Assembly: GCA_018401885.1 (NCBI GenBank)
Contig: JAGYKB010000001.1
Coordinates: 124,001 to 188,000 of the forward strand
Direction: 5' to 3'
Origin: Gammaproteobacteria bacterium
GTDB lineage: Bacteria > Pseudomonadota > Gammaproteobacteria > Pseudomonadales > Pseudohongiellaceae
DNA length: 64,000 nt
A program made the position numbers and the translations under genes. Each line of letters starts with the position of its first letter. Positions within the stretch are counted from its first letter, which is position 1. The notes beneath the pieces were generated by a model. The model was not told where the DNA came from. It searched no databases and worked only from the letters and a program-made list of their open reading frames with translations. Shown piece by piece: positions 39,400 through 60,210 of this stretch.

Positions 39400-40857
<1,458 letters not shown>

Positions 40858-47684: not shown

Positions 47685-48053
47685 CTAGCTTCCCCAAAAA
47701 ATCTGAATACCCCAAAGGAGGTAAACCGTTATCAACAATGCACAACCGAGTTGAAAGATCAGGCGAACAAACGTCGCAGCACTCCCCAGCTGCAAGCTAG
47801 TTAGATAATCTGTTGCGATGGTCCACATCCCAATCCACGCATGCCCGCAAAGAGCAAGTACTGACATCATGCTGAAGAGGCGAACTGCATTATTAGAGAA
47901 AATTCCGGACCACTGCTCGAAACTAAGTTCCGGATAGAGCACGAAAACACCGAAGATGAAAAGCGAGTAAGCCAAGAGAACGATCGCGCTCACACGTTGA
48001 ACCAACCAGTCAGAAAGGCCTGTTCGGCTGAAATTTGTCGCACTAGTTACCAT
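47685..48053 (-). CDS. sdhD: Succinate dehydrogenase membrane anchor subunit
   Basis: Hydrophobic anchor of complex II with three membrane helices in 122 aa (about 25-45, 58-80, 95-118). The family features LSDWLVQRVSAIVLLAY at the start and CGHAWIGMWTIATDYL near residue 68-83 (heme/quinone side) are present. It overlaps sdhC by 7 nt and abuts sdhA. Confidence 0.94.
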   Translation of the reverse strand: MVTSATNFSRTGLSDWLVQRVSAIVLLAYSLFIFGVFVLYPELSFEQWSGIFSNNAVRLFSMMSVLALCGHAWIGMWTIATDYLTSLQLGSAATFVRLIFQLGCALLITVYLLWGIQIFWGS

Positions 48054-48421
48054 ATCCAGACTCCAGCAATGACTATGAGTAGTGTTGATAGAATAAGTGT
48101 GATCCGGCTTCCAATGGCTGCGCCAGCGAGCGTTTCACCAATCCCCCAATCCATAATTAGGTGCTTTGTGCCAGCAACGAGGTGATAAAGCAGTCCGGAG
48201 ACGATTCCCCAAAGCACAAATTTACCCACTGGGGAGCCAACCAATTGCTGGGCTTTAACGAACCCTGCTTCTGATTCTAGCGACAGGCTGAGTAGGTAAA
48301 GTAGAATCGCAACTCCGACAAAAATAATTACACCCGTTATACGATGCGTTATGGAGAGAATCGCTGTTAGTGGGAATCGGATAGTGGTGAGATCGATATT
48401 TACTGGTCTAGTATCTTTCAC
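48047..48421 (-). CDS. sdhC: Succinate dehydrogenase cytochrome b556 subunit
   Basis: Heme b- and quinone-binding anchor of complex II, 124 aa with three membrane helices. The signature RPVNIDLTTIRFPLTAI opens the protein, ITHRITGVIIF carries the quinone-site Ser/Arg region, and the heme His lies in GLLYHLVAGTKHLIMDWG (H80, H87 conserved). The start is GTG with an AAAGG site 6 nt upstream. First gene of the sdhCDAB-sucABlpdAsucCD run, divergent from gltA. Confidence 0.95.
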   Translation of the reverse strand: MKDTRPVNIDLTTIRFPLTAILSITHRITGVIIFVGVAILLYLLSLSLESEAGFVKAQQLVGSPVGKFVLWGIVSGLLYHLVAGTKHLIMDWGIGETLAGAAIGSRITLILSTLLIVIAGVWIW

Positions 48422-48781
48422 GTTTAACCTTTCGAATTTCTTTTGATGGGGTGAAATGCCGCCTTTTTGCGCTCACTTGTCGCCAGTTACGTCCAACAGA
48501 CGGTTCGATGAGTGCCACTCCGATCAAACTGATTGAATTAATTAACAATTTCAACGTCACAAACGGCAGGAAGTATATTAGCGAGTGCCCACCAATACAA
48601 TAAAACTTGGCTCTCTCGATGCAATACCGACAATATATTGTCGTTATGCAATCATCCCTAGCATTTTGTGCTCCTCTACTACGCTACAACCCACGCAATC
48701 GTTTACCTCGAAGGTCAGTGCACACTGCACGTAGCGATCAGTAGATCGGCCGTAAGTGACAGTTCTGTAACGGCTAAATAT

Positions 48782-53700: not shown

Positions 53701-53753
53701 TTAAAAAGTTAGTTGAAAACTTAGTTAAAAAGTTGGTTAAAAAGTTAGTTAGA
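53694..53753. repeat. Five 12-bp tandem repeats across two convergent stop codons
   Basis: Five 12-bp units near AAGTTAGTTAAA run without gaps from 53694 to 53753. The first unit holds the TerB stop (53698-53700) and the last holds the mlaA stop (53749-53751). Confidence 0.85.
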
Positions 53754-54489
53754 AATCCCCGAAAGGCTCATCGAGCATACCATCATTGATGAGATATTCT
53801 CGACGCTGTAAATAAGCTTCTCGTATAAAGAGGTAGCGATTACCCGTGATCAACTCGTCGAGTGCTAAAACGTCAGATCGGGAATCGGTTTCGTCAAGTA
53901 AAAACAACCCGAGTCTTAGCGATCGATCCTCGATCAGTTGAAGCGGGTTAAAGACAGTGTCTATTACCAAGCCAAACGAGTCTCTGACTGTGCTTGCACC
54001 GAAAACGGGAAGCATGACATAGGGGCCGGAGCCCAACCCCCATGCCGCCAACGTTTGGCCAAAGTCCTCTTCATTTTTTCGCAGCCCAACGCTGCTCGCA
54101 ACATCGAGAAAGCCTCCCACACCGACCGTACTGTTGACTAACAATCGACCGCTGTCTCCTGCTGCAGCTGCGAATTTTAACTGGAGAATATCGTTAGCAA
54201 GCACGTTGATATCATCAACGTTGCTAAAGAAATTACTGATGCCCTGCCTCATAAATCTCGGAAGAAACGTTGTATAGGCGAAGGCGGTAGGCTTTACAAC
54301 AAGCTGGTCAAAGTAATCATTCCACTTGAACACTGTGGTATTCGCCTCTCGCCAAGGATCGCTTGCCTGACTCGCAGCAACAGACGAGCATGACAATAGT
54401 GCCGCTGTCGTACAGGCAACTAATGCTCTCCGAAAGGGGATAGACCAACGAAAACTCCCCCCTAGGCTGTAAAAAAAGTGTAGCAACAT
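53749..54489 (-). CDS. mlaA: Outer-membrane lipoprotein MlaA (VacJ)
   Basis: Outer-membrane component of the Mla system that removes phospholipids from the outer leaflet. The lipobox Cys is C34 in AALLSCSS. The family core has NDYFDQLVVKPTAFAY, RQGISNFFSNVDDINVLAND and FGQTLAAWGLGSGPYVMLPV, plus TVRDSFGLVIDTV. The 246 aa length is typical. It lies alone here: mlaBCDEF are not in the window. It stops inside the tandem repeat and is followed by no clear terminator. Confidence 0.93.
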   Translation of the reverse strand: MLLHFFYSLGGSFRWSIPFRRALVACTTAALLSCSSVAASQASDPWREANTTVFKWNDYFDQLVVKPTAFAYTTFLPRFMRQGISNFFSNVDDINVLANDILQLKFAAAAGDSGRLLVNSTVGVGGFLDVASSVGLRKNEEDFGQTLAAWGLGSGPYVMLPVFGASTVRDSFGLVIDTVFNPLQLIEDRSLRLGLFLLDETDSRSDVLALDELITGNRYLFIREAYLQRREYLINDGMLDEPFGDF

Positions 54490-54518
54490 GCAATTCCCTT
54501 CACTTTGCTGCTGGATTG

Positions 54519-57500
54519 TCAGTGAATAATTCCCTTGGAGCCGCCCTTAATCGCCGAAAGCGCTTTCTCTATTCGTGTTGGCGAAACTGGGATCTTGGTT
54601 TTCAAGCTTTGAGCGAAGGCTGAGACTCGAAATTCCTCGAGCATCCACCTAATTTCCGCTAATCTAGGTGCAGAACTCATGGTAGGTCCTGCTGCTAACT
54701 CATTCTTAAGCTTCTCGAGCTGTACCGAATAGTTTGCCAAGAGCTCACTGTCACTCTTGTCCTTAGGGCCCATAAAGGGTGCTTTCGCCAGTCTCAACTC
54801 TATCGCACTTAGATAACGCGGGAATTCGCCAAGTCTTTCGATACCGGTCTCGACTATAAACCTAGGTGTGAACAGGCGATCTAGCTGGCTGTTTACATCG
54901 CTTAGCAAATACTCAGGCGCTGAGGATAACGCCGAAAGTCGATTCTTGATTGTGAGTCTAACCACGATTATACGCTCTAACAAAGAGATCAATCGATCAC
55001 CAAGGCCGACTACCTGCGACTTGACCTCTGCAGCCGCTCTTTCAAAACTCTGCCTGTCTCTAATAGTGTGCGTGTTGGTTAAAACGTAGGCATAACACGC
55101 CTCAACGCATTGCTCGACAAGATCGCCAGTGTTCACAGGGAACTTGAGAGCATTTTGTCTTACAAATCGGTCGCAATGTTTACGCAGCATGTTGCGCTGC
55201 TGAACGCTGCTAAGCATAGCAAGCTTTAACACTCCTCCCGCGTGCACTTCGCGCGCTATCTCTTCATCCGCAAACAGTTTTACTGACACACTGGCTCCCG
55301 CATCAACCAAACTGGGATAGCGCAAAAGCTTAATATTACCCTCGCCAACTTCAATGCTCTGGGGCAACTCGGTCTCTGGCATTGTTATGAGTCCTGACAC
55401 CTCAAGTGGATGACCAAGCGATTGTTGGGAATCGCTTGGTCTGGCATTAGCGTCGCTGTCTTTGCAAAACGCCTGCTTAAGCACAGCTAACGAACTGTCG
55501 ATTGCTAGCTGCTTTCCGGTGATATCAATCACGTACTTTAATCTTTAGGTGCGGCCGCAGCTCAATCGCTTCGAGCTGTTCGCGGTCGATCCTCAACCTC
55601 CTCAAATCGTAAATAGCAGCAATGAAAGAATCGAGAAAACCGATAGACCTCATGCTGAGATACGGTAATAGCTCATTTACGAATGCGTTAACGGGGATAA
55701 AATTTTTCCGCTGCGCTTTGGGAAGTCCTTCAGTAAGGCGGCCTGCTGCTGAAATAATCCCAGGCACCGACCAGTCCGATATCAGCCTGTGTTAATTGCG
55801 CTAACAGAGATACGGGAACATCAATAGTCGCGCCATCATGCTCCTTGCCGGGTTCGAATACATAGTCGATTTTCAGAGTGTTGCTCTGAATCGCCGCCGC
55901 GTCCGGAAAATTCGCAAAGCTAAAGTCATCACTCTGGTCAGCGAGAAGAACTTTCTCGCTGAGCTTCAAACAATCGCCTTTTCGGTCATTTATAGAGACA
56001 AGCCAGCTCTTTAACGTTTTGAGTGAGTTTACTTCCTCGGGGATTACCCGCTCAAAAAGTCAGTTGCGAATTCGTTCGCGAGGATATTTGGCCGCCTCAG
56101 CTTGTCTTCAAGTTTCTCCAGACGCTCGAGTAAGCGCTGATTGTAGTTAACGAACTCAATCTCGCTCGACATCTGCTGACCGACGAGCCCATGCCTTATA
56201 AAGAGCGATCTTGCAGCCGCCGGGTCGATAGGCGCGAACCGCACCAAGGCCCGTTCGACGAGAGTGAGCCCAAACAAATGCACCTTCTCGTAGGCCATGA
56301 TTTCCTGTCGCTTTCGAGTCCAATGAGGATCGAAGGACTCACGCTTAACTAGGTGCATGGCAACCTCTTCAACCCATTCGGGCTGAATTTTAGCCGCTTG
56401 TGTCGCGAAAACTTGTGATGTTTCTATTTGCTCACCTGTCATAATCCATTTTGTGTTCGTTCGAGCCAAAACGGAAGCGCCAAACAATGAGAATTTTTTG
56501 TTTCGCGTACCGACAAAACTGCGTTCATCTGTTTTTCTCGCTATTTGATTCAATGAACCTGCGATCAAGCTCTTATGAATACAGGCGTATTCTGCCTCCT
56601 CATCATTTACCCTAAACCCTAGGCCCTGACAGGCCAGCAATAGCTGTCGATGGACTTCTCTCCATTCCCGCATGCGCATAAAGGACAAGAATTGTTTTTT
56701 ACAGTATTTTCGCAGCACAGCCTGCGTTGTTCCCTGCCTCACTGCTTCATAAGCATCCCAAAGCTTCACTAACGACAAGAAATCTGAATCTACATGTTTG
56801 TATTCAGCCTGCCTTTCAATTGCGACCTGCTTATTCTCGCTGTTGTTTTCGCGCGGGTCTTGAATACTGAGACCGCTTACTATGATCAAAACTTCCCGCA
56901 AACAATTGAGTTTTTGGGACTCAAGAAGCATCCTTGCGTAGCGCGGGTCTATTGGTAGTGCAGCCATCTGCTGGCCAATTGAGGTTAAAGTCTTGCCCGC
57001 AGTGATGGCGTTAAGCTCGATCAGAAGTTTATGCCCTTCATTAATAGCTTTGGTTTCGGGCATTTCAATAAATGGAAAGTTTTCAACATCGCCCAGCTTA
57101 AGTTGCAGCATTTTTAGAATTACCGCAGCAAGATTGGTGCGCTGTATTTCAGGATCGGTATACAGTGGGCGCGAGTCGAAATCTTGCTCTGAATATAAGC
57201 GTATACAGATCCCGTTCGCGATACGCCCACATCGACCTTTGCGTTGATTCGCACTTGCCTGTGAGATGGCTTCGACCGGCAACCGTTGTACTTTGCTCTG
57301 CAGGCTGTAGCGACTAATCCTAGCGGTGCCCGTGTCGACGACGTAGTTAATCCCTGGAACGGTAATTGATGTTTCTGCGACATTCGTAGCAAGCACCACG
57401 CGCCGGGTCTGATGCGCGGAAAATATTCTCGCTTGCTCGGCATGCTGCAATCTACCGTACAACGGTAGGATCTCGAGATCACCGAGTTTTGCCTTACGCA

Positions 57501-58571
57501 AACTAGTTGCAGTGTCACGGATCTCTCGTTCTGTAGGCAGAAAGACGAGGATATCACCGGTGTTGATTCTATCGTGTTGCGGATTTTAACGGATGGCCGA
57601 GGCGATTGCTTCGGCTTGCGGTTCCTCGTTGCGCGAACCCTCTACCGGCTGCAGGACAGGCTTGTGAACCTCTATGGAAAGGTCCGGCCTTCGACCGACA
57701 CAATTGGTGCGTCACCAAAATGCGCTGAAAATTTCTCTAGATCTATCGTCGCTGAGGTAATGATAACTTTCAGATCGCTTCTTTTCCGAATAAGATCTCG
57801 AAGAAACCCAAGCAAAAAGTCAATATTGAGTGAACGCTCGTGCGCCTCGTCAATTATAATTGCTTCATATTTACTTAGGTAGCGATCAGCCTGTATCTCG
57901 GCTAAAAGAATACCGTCGGTCATCAGCTTTAGGAATGTTTCGGGTCCACTTCGATCGTCAAAGCGGACTTGTGAGCCCACGCCGCGACCAGCGATGGGGC
58001 CCAATTCGTCCATATCCGCGTCGCAACGGACAGTGCTGCGAGCCGTCGAGGTTGCGTGTGCCCGATCATTCCGCGCCGACCTAAACCCGCCTCTAAGCAA
58101 ATTTTTGGCAATTGGGTAGTCTTTCCTGAACCGGTGTCCCCTGCTACCACCACCACCTGGTGATTGCGTATAAGTTCAGCAATCTCACAAGCCTTAGCGC
58201 TGACCGGCAATTGCGCCGGATATGACTGGGTTTCTGGAATCAACTTAGCGCGAAGCTGGCATTTACGTGCCGACTTGGTCAGTTCTTCTAGGAGGCGCTG
58301 AGGCGCCTGTCGGGACTCTTTGCAAGAGGCTCTCTTGTGAGGGCGCCCCTACAGCAGGAGTCTCTAATGACGCTGCAAATTTGCGAACTTTTTTCTGCAG
58401 CCTATGAGCATCGCTAAGTTGCACAGATTCTAGAATCGACTCGAGGCTGTTGAGCAGTACTTTTTTAGCCTCGGCTTTGTTTCCGTCTACGTTTAAGTGC
58501 TTGAGGTCATCTGCGGCAGAATTCTGTTTAGAGCTGCGCGTCTTGGTCAGTGGAATAGCTTTGCCGTTCAA
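54519..58571 (-). pseudogene. hrpA: ATP-dependent RNA helicase HrpA, multiply frameshifted
   Basis: The whole DEAH-box helicase HrpA (about 1,300 aa) is recognisable in order: [93 protein letters not shown] and the C-terminal DUF3418 ending AEIRWMLEEFRVSAFAQSL. It cannot be read in one frame. By alignment with the remembered E. coli sequence there are six frameshifts (near 58320, 58013, 57672, 56054, 55771 and 55530) and one in-frame TAA (57588-57586). The probable start is TTG 58571 after AAGGGG, overlapping the end of fadD. The fadD-hrpA order matches Pseudomonas. Neighbours are intact. HrpA is non-essential in E. coli and is linked to mRNA processing and rescue of stalled ribosomes. Confidence 0.9.
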
Positions 58572-58584
58572 TCGCGTCTGCCCC

Positions 58585-60210
58585 TTAGTGTAATTCGCGG
58601 CGTAGAATTTTACCGATAATAGACTTCGGAAGGTCATCTACAAAAACGACTTCTTTGGGTACCTTATAGGAAGCTAGTCCTTGACGGCAATGCGCGATGA
58701 TCTCGTCAACGCTTGGTTTTTCGGCATCAATGACCACAAATAACTTAACCGCCTCTCCAGTTCGATCACTAGGTGCTGCAATGGCTGCACTTTCCAAGAC
58801 ACTCGGATGTCTGTTTACCCAATCTTCGATTTCATTCGGGAAAACATTAAATCCTGAAACTAAAATCATGTCTTTTTTTCTATCAACGATCCTGACATAG
58901 CCATCGGAATCTATCTCGGCGTAGTCGCCGCTTTTAAACCATCCATCGGGAGTAAAAGCCTCTCGTGTAGCCTGTTCTTGCTCCCAATAGCCATGCATTA
59001 CTTGAGGTCCCCTGATCCAAAGCTCGCCCCGCTCGCCTGGCAAGAGAATCTCCCCTGCTTCGTTCGCAGTGCATAGTTCCGTTTCAGGAAGCGCGAACCC
59101 TACGGTCCCAGCTATCACCTTACCGGGAACATTTACAGTTACCGCAGGTGAACATTCCGTAAGCCCATAGCCCTCCATGATCTCGCAGCCAGTTTTCTCG
59201 AGCCATTCTTCTGCAATCGACGAACTCATTGCCATGCCACCAGCGCCACAAAATTTCAAATGCTTCTTGTTGTATTTTAAAAATTTCGGGTGTCGCAAAA
59301 TAGCTGAATAAAGCGTATTTATTCCGACAAACCCGCTGACCTTATACCGCACGAGCGCTTTAATGAGGCCAGAAATATCTCTCGGATTTGTAATTAGCAC
59401 ACTGTGATTACCGGCGAATGGCATAGCGAAACAGTGCATCAAGAATGCATAGCTATGGTACAGGGGAAGTGGTGCAGCGACGCTCTCGCAGCGGTCATCC
59501 ATGGCTAACACCGACCTTGAACGAAACTGCATGAGGTTAGCAATTAAATTTGCGTGTGAGAGCATTGCGCCTTTAGCTACGCCTGTCGTGCCACCGGTGT
59601 ACAACAGGACAGCGGTATCATTACGATTGAGCTGTGGGGACACAAACGGTTTTGATGCATGCTTAAGCGTGTCTGCAAAACGCACAGCATTAGGTATTGA
59701 GTAGGGAGCAACCATTTTCTTTAGGTATTTGGCCACGAAATTGAGCATAAACCGTTTCGGCGCGGGCTGAAGATCGCCGAGTGAAGAAATAATGATTGTT
59801 TTTAGGCTTGTTCGTGCGCGAACAGAAGCAATCTTGGAAGCGAATGATTCAAGGGTGACAACCGCCACAGCACCGGAATCATTGAACTGATGCTCTAATT
59901 CCTTCTCTGTATAAAGCGGATTTGTACTAACAACTATTAGACCTGCACGGAGCGCGCCATAGAGAGCCACGGGGAACTGTAGGACATTGGGAAGCTGGAT
60001 TGCGATACGATCGCCTGGGTTGAGATCAGTCTCGTTTTGAAGATATTTAGCGAAACGCCAACTTAATTCATCGACTTCTTTGAACTGCATCGTTTTACCG
60101 AAGCAGCTAAACCCAGGCAATTCAGAATGAGTTAATAAGCAATAGTCGATTAGTTCCGGAAGTGACTGAAATTGCTGAGGGTCTAGATCTTGCTGCAGTT
60201 TCTCTACCAC
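58585..60210 (-). CDS. fadD: Long-chain-fatty-acid--CoA ligase
   Basis: Activates fatty acids to acyl-CoA via an acyl-adenylate, feeding beta-oxidation. The ATP/AMP motif is LLYTGGTTGVAKGAMLSHANL; the FACS signature is DGWFKSGDYAEIDSDGYVRI with VDRKKDMILVSGFNVFP; EGYGLTECSPAVTVN is conserved; the terminal SIIGKILRREL carries the catalytic Lys. The 541 aa length is a little shorter than E. coli FadD (561). The start is GTG after an ideal GGAGGAATT site. It precedes the broken hrpA on the same strand. Confidence 0.95.
   Translation of the reverse strand: MVEKLQQDLDPQQFQSLPELIDYCLLTHSELPGFSCFGKTMQFKEVDELSWRFAKYLQNETDLNPGDRIAIQLPNVLQFPVALYGALRAGLIVVSTNPLYTEKELEHQFNDSGAVAVVTLESFASKIASVRARTSLKTIIISSLGDLQPAPKRFMLNFVAKYLKKMVAPYSIPNAVRFADTLKHASKPFVSPQLNRNDTAVLLYTGGTTGVAKGAMLSHANLIANLMQFRSRSVLAMDDRCESVAAPLPLYHSYAFLMHCFAMPFAGNHSVLITNPRDISGLIKALVRYKVSGFVGINTLYSAILRHPKFLKYNKKHLKFCGAGGMAMSSSIAEEWLEKTGCEIMEGYGLTECSPAVTVNVPGKVIAGTVGFALPETELCTANEAGEILLPGERGELWIRGPQVMHGYWEQEQATREAFTPDGWFKSGDYAEIDSDGYVRIVDRKKDMILVSGFNVFPNEIEDWVNRHPSVLESAAIAAPSDRTGEAVKLFVVIDAEKPSVDEIIAHCRQGLASYKVPKEVVFVDDLPKSIIGKILRRELH

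Follow-up and report, generated by a model that had tools for sequence, protein, structure and literature searches.

The hrpA gene (DEAH-box RNA helicase) in the window is broken as assembled, by six changes of frame and an in-frame stop codon (54519..58571, minus strand), and the same locus is found with an open frame on a small contig, C37, of the same assembly. We lean towards the reading that hrpA is intact in the sampled population, as seen on C37, and that the broken version reflects a local defect in the long contig, C1 (approximately 55529-58340), and not a lost gene. The window, the whole stretch of 64,000 nucleotides analysed here, is positions 124001-188000 of C1 (378,137 bp). The assembly, which appears to be a metagenome-assembled genome, has 2.62 Mb in 70 contigs, with a completeness of 99.63% and an estimated contamination of 0.15%.

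The broken hrpA gene of the window

When six pieces of the window hrpA were each searched alone, their matches to the HrpA profile (TIGR01967) followed one another along it, at positions 26-133, 132-244, 280-779, 786-878, 879-961, and 962-1282, and the longest piece alone scored 750.8 bits against the curated cut-off of 722.75. For a seventh piece, the N-terminal 124 aa, the search gave no family match. The pieces thus span the profile in order, as in HrpA, while the frame, unlike that of an intact HrpA, is broken at six places in addition to the stop. The original prediction had described a syntenic hrpA with its motifs in order across successive frames, six frame changes, and a TAA at 57588-57586. 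The frame walk, for which the intact hrpA ORFs of two relatives (G053 and G038) served as references, bears this out: the count is exact, the placements are right, and the TAA is present and in frame. The frames follow each other as -3, -1 (58318-58013), -3, -2 (from 57666), -1 (56059-55778), -2 (55776-55531), and -3, with changes at about 58318, 58013, 57672, 56064, 55777, and 55531. Chance is not in question for this broken frame.

The individual lesions, all given on the minus strand, differ in part from those proposed. At frame change 1 (58317..58345), correctly placed near 58320 by the original prediction, the window carries 13 bases more than G053 and G038, near 58325-58337. Frame changes 2 (58012..58013, relative to C37) and 6 (55529..55533, compared with C37) are the expected net losses of one and two bases, each with a substitution. 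At frame change 3 (57666..57675), the predicted net loss of one at 57672 is followed nine bases on by an in-frame loss of three (57666), which had been missed. The frame does change where a one-base loss in a T run had been suggested near 56054 (frame change 4, 56059..56069), but relative to C37 four bases are lost on balance, accompanied by four mismatches, and this is not a plain T-run slip. Likewise, the frame changes near 55771, where loss of a 5-bp unit had been suggested, but by a gain of one base at 55777 relative to C37 (frame change 5, in 55731..55777). The same stretch contains a rewritten block at 55753-55731 (net -3), which takes out an [ED][KR] pair that the relatives compared there possess. 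Another rewritten block (57565..57603, hereafter the 57603 block) has 14 mismatches and nine missing letters relative to C37 and includes the TAA. Neither block was in the original list.

From 58637 to 54519 the frame changes add up to a multiple of three. This would be in line with programmed frameshifting or recoding, by which a full-length HrpA would be read from C1, but a zero sum has a one-in-three chance. Moreover, there are six changes and a stop, those changes that can be compared are missing from C37, G053, and G038, and one rewritten block removes the [ED][KR] pair. The probability of such read-through is negligible.

An open version of the locus on contig C37

C37 (L001, 4,566 bp) was found by a family search of the organism's own genome, in which its hrpA scored 1464 bits over TIGR01967 positions 53-1282 with zero stops, while the matches on C1 (G000:C1) contain stops. 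It aligns end to end with window 58256-53713 (53713..58256, minus strand, 98.7% identity). Its hrpA frame runs without interruption from base 2 up to the stop codon (1,252 codons), and its mlaA shows no difference. The 5' end of the gene is missing at the contig start. The first ~105 codons are absent and frame change 1 is therefore outside the reach of C37, about 60-80 bases beyond it. When the own genome was searched with 9 kb around the hrpA locus, C1 and C37 only were found.

A pseudogene should have a frame broken as assembled, as the window hrpA has, and no intact version in the same assembly, but the hrpA of C37 is the same locus and is open. The original prediction had proposed that HrpA was lost, had named an unbroken version as the finding that would refute this, and had suggested a search for a second hrpA or hrpB. 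The open hrpA of C37 provides such an unbroken version in part, and the loss is unsupported for this assembly. In a search of the genome with the HrpB profile (TIGR01970), the hrpA places alone responded and none was above the cut-off. The genome holds one Smr-domain match, just above its cut-off. In the parts of the sources available, a role in rescuing stalled or collided ribosomes in E. coli is ascribed to HrpA, an RNA helicase (Campbell et al. 2025, cited in PMC13159725 and PMC11633108). Since an intact hrpA exists in the assembly, we draw no conclusion on a loss of ribosome rescue.

Two versions in one assembly, despite an estimated contamination of 0.15%, might also come from a gene duplication, with two hrpA-mlaA segments in one genome, the C1 copy decaying and the C37 copy intact elsewhere. 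However, C37 holds nothing beyond the C1 locus, a second location was not seen, and among the matches listed none of the 83 other genus genomes has two full-length hrpA matches. A duplication is thus very improbable.

When 28 own stretches (439,537 bases) were compared all against all at 80% identity or more, C37 and C1 were the sole near-duplicate pair. The three other matches were contig ends, and two of these overlap at 84-87% without gaps. Two more small contigs, compared with the whole own genome, were unique except for their ends. Among the few contigs tested, twin contigs are not the rule.

Differences between C1 and C37

Within hrpA, C1 and C37 differ at nine gap-bearing places, by 29 clustered mismatches, and by seven isolated SNPs. 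The lesions covered by C37 span 58013-55529, and identical runs inside this part reach 905, 589, 337, and 281 bp. Only one isolated SNP lies there, while the other six are at 54696..55452 (minus strand), where four of the six are synonymous and there are zero indels. Five of the seven SNPs are silent and two are conservative amino-acid changes (V to I and L to I), both assigned to the window side because C37 and three relatives agree. The mlaA genes are identical, and in the intergenic tail the two contigs differ by one SNP (53716) and a 12-bp unit. Together, the seven hrpA SNPs, the SNP at 53716, and the 12-bp unit show that two haplotypes are likely to be present.

Along the gene, the lesions are separated from the isolated SNPs. 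When six merged clusters were tested against the seven SNPs, an exact Mann-Whitney test gave p = 0.008; a Fisher test, with its threshold picked post hoc, gave p = 0.005. Lineage decay should mix both types of change, with substitutions outnumbering indels. At assumed indel:SNP ratios of 1:10 and 1:3, at least nine indel events given seven SNPs have p of ~6e-8 and 7e-4, respectively. Relative to C37, 23 letters are missing from C1 and one is extra, although letters are not independent; counted as gap-bearing places, the ratio is 8 to 1. Lesions and SNPs that lie apart, with only one isolated SNP among the lesions, would not be expected of a gene that decays site by site. The window hrpA is like an ordinary recent bacterial pseudogene in having frameshifts and a stop in a gene that is otherwise conserved and syntenic. 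Unlike in such a pseudogene, its indels and rewritten blocks outnumber the isolated substitutions, and lesions are not mixed with neutral substitutions (p = 0.008, from few events). Small deletions with conservation between them had led the original prediction to a recent loss. The pattern does fit such a loss, but a local defect accounts better for the scarcity of isolated SNPs between the lesions. The prediction had also taken the intact neighbours as an argument against sequence error. Both neighbours, fadD and mlaA, are open, but the argument is weak, as the error-like letters are confined to the stretch covered by C37 and ~80 bases more.

There is an intact twin contig, and the differences from it are clustered and separated from the isolated SNPs; we infer a bridging step in C1 with the following cause. 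C37 would be an independent rendering of the hrpA locus, left unplaced by the assembly as a duplicate. The assembler might have broken where closely related haplotypes meet (the SNPs and the 12-bp repeat-unit difference downstream), and the gap in C1 would have been closed by bridging or filling, with sequence that was poorly supported or came from mixed strains. This patch might have stayed uncorrected because the reads of the locus fit C37 better. Several points count against a local defect. Frame change 1 lies outside C37, and two likely haplotypes would permit a real broken haplotype. In addition, the tested rest of C1 is clean except for a peptidase gene and one unclear place, and a short-read graph assembler normally outputs only words seen in reads. 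The start of the 57603 block (see below) also resembles a homologous variant more than noise.

A real decayed allele would mean that one strain lost hrpA via several small, partly complex indels, and that C37 comes from a co-existing intact strain. The two likely haplotypes implied by the SNPs and the 12-bp unit are consistent with this, as are the five silent SNPs of seven, the V to I and L to I changes on the window side, and the confinement of the lesions to one gene with mlaA untouched. Nevertheless, the indels and rewritten blocks are too many for so few SNPs, and the two kinds of change are unmixed. We consider a decayed allele, the main alternative, possible but doubtful.

hrpA in related genomes

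C37 covers six of the lesion clusters, and at these G053 and G038 share its length, while G053 has nearly its letters too. A comparison with close relatives had been recommended in the original prediction, and it yields intact ORFs in both genomes. A third relative, G069, agrees with C37 at both lesion clusters that it covers. The protein identity to the C37 hrpA is 87% for G053 and 79% for G038, and dN/dS between C37 and G053 is 0.089. An hrpA match is present in 75 of the 84 genus genomes (own included) and in 46 of the 48 good assemblies. Among the matches listed, 64 of the 83 other genomes have one hrpA row of at least 1,100 residues, and eight such rows contain one stop. Judging from these sequences, hrpA has been under constraint. 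This wide distribution argues against a decayed allele, while genus drafts in which hrpA is multi-frame (G060 and G093) or truncated (G069) argue for it.

The genomic place of the gene is conserved, with the order fadD-hrpA-mlaA held in 10 of the 13 relative loci examined. The three exceptions are L137, in which the 5' part of hrpA is missing and fadD is absent, L140, which has no fadD match, and L190, in which the contig ends inside hrpA and mlaA is absent.

Two of the relative loci, L188:5119-8872 (G093:C10) and L190:3-2007 (G060:C55), have hrpA matches that span more than one reading frame, and a repeat search of the G093 and G060 assemblies found no intact second hrpA match. In L137:1-5388 (G069:C126), the last 492 hrpA codons abut genes that, judged by eye, resemble a phage replication module. 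No further hrpA match was found in the G069 assembly, and the junction would reflect either a chimeric contig or a phage inserted into hrpA.

Origin of the rewritten blocks

The 57603 block begins with five codons that translate to ASAIR, where C37 has ISAIK. Examined post hoc, these codons share 11 of 15 letters with G070, 10 of 15 with G038, and 8 of 15 with C37. When 34 distinct relatives were compared, the block was nearer to 7 and C37 nearer to 23, with 4 ties. Only 2 of 2000 shuffles of the block matched equally well, but this is a weak control since the block shares descent with hrpA. Instead of random error, the 57603 block may represent a homologous variant that came from another strain, and its first five codons seem to favour mixed strain sequence over plain read error. 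The result fits both a mixed-strain assembly patch and recombination in a real strain, but not plain read error, and we left the odds of the competing readings as before. We leave open whether the 57603 block could be a patch from a homologue of another species. Such a patch was also considered for the 55753-55731 block and is ruled out there, as the [ED][KR] pair of the relatives is missing.

A donor for the lesion letters of seven regions was sought inside the window, and no match of more than 13 bases was found. In the own genome, a 17-base part of 57565..57603 matched only itself at up to two mismatches. With 19 bases of this block and up to three mismatches, 31 of the 84 genus genomes (own included) had a match, which is about the level of the reversed control. 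The best foreign match had two mismatches, and its contig differs from the hrpA contig of that genome. This lack of a donor in the own genome, with genus matches at the control level, speaks against a decayed allele. One further reading, which we consider unlikely, is that hrpA is segregating in the population: a sister strain would keep the gene, and one strain would have lost it in a single burst of complex, clustered micro-rearrangements, with hardly any point mutation. This would call for a mutational process able to rewrite blocks of 10-40 bp inside a single gene. In a literature search on short-patch illegitimate recombination or microindels, the first phrase was absent among the matches listed. 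If the broken version is real, it would be a natural loss of HrpA in a genome in which no HrpB was found, and thus a natural test of dispensability.

Extent of the frame breaks in C1

Scans of codon composition failed to pick up the known hrpA lesions, and a test for frame breaks by homology to relatives replaced them. In this test, 247 ORFs from five relatives were compared with stretches of C1, and 154 matched at 45% identity or more. The matches cover the window from 16,242 on and C1:188001-248000, with zero in the window's first 16 kb and in C1:1-120000, and they merge to 85 places (89,608 bases), two of which are hrpA. A single frame over at least 85% of the ORF was found for 134 of the 154. 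The other 20 comprise five hrpA ORFs, two of one peptidase gene, six cut at a stretch edge, and seven that are partial or unclear. The only multiply broken gene found coincides with the only twin contig found.

Of the genes tested, only the peptidase gene, presumably of the M16/insulinase type, has a clear frame break besides hrpA. It is read in two frames at C1 ~241,523 (L173:11292-14254), outside the window, and its product is 977-988 aa in G071 and G070. One of the seven partial or unclear ORFs, of 205 aa and from G069, matches window 48050-48665 in two frames, upstream of 48472; it probably overruns the real gene start. The last ~120 residues of the ORF at L185:11277-12791 (G070:C37), the start of which we take to be dihydrolipoyl dehydrogenase, failed to align with the window ORF 39400-40848, and the L185 contig is possibly chimeric.

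Many bacterial pseudogene calls are assembly errors, according to the available part of Cooley and Wright (2024, PMC11017572). The window hrpA resembles the assembly-made pseudogenes described there in that it is broken in the assembly yet likely whole. As far as that part goes, their study treats public genomes in bulk, while our evidence is an unplaced twin contig in assembled sequence alone. We found no paper joining the hrpA helicase with a pseudogene. A gene that looks convincingly dead on a long contig, with healthy neighbours, may still live in the same dataset, and searching the small contigs of the same organism for a twin exposes such cases.

Genomic setting

The window hrpA is flanked downstream by mlaA (53749..54489, minus strand) and upstream by a fadD-type long-chain acyl-CoA ligase gene (58585..60210, minus strand), both identified by family matches. 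These two genes and dusA are open, with family matches that span nearly their whole length; dusA scored above its curated cut-off, and fadD and mlaA below theirs. A 950-aa protein of the window, which we take to be 2-oxoglutarate dehydrogenase E1, has its best matches in gammaproteobacteria, in Pseudomonadales and neighbours (Thalassolituus, Bacterioplanes, and Pseudomonas, 63-66%), and a partial match of 75% in a short UBA6173 contig.

Downstream of mlaA, at 53701-53746, there are 12-bp tandem units rich in AACTTTTTAAC, and the window has one unit more than C37. The gap-free contig-end overlaps at 84-87% are between L149:1-164 and L143:1-164 and between L150:2-166 and L175:3749-3913, which suggests strain variation at contig breaks.
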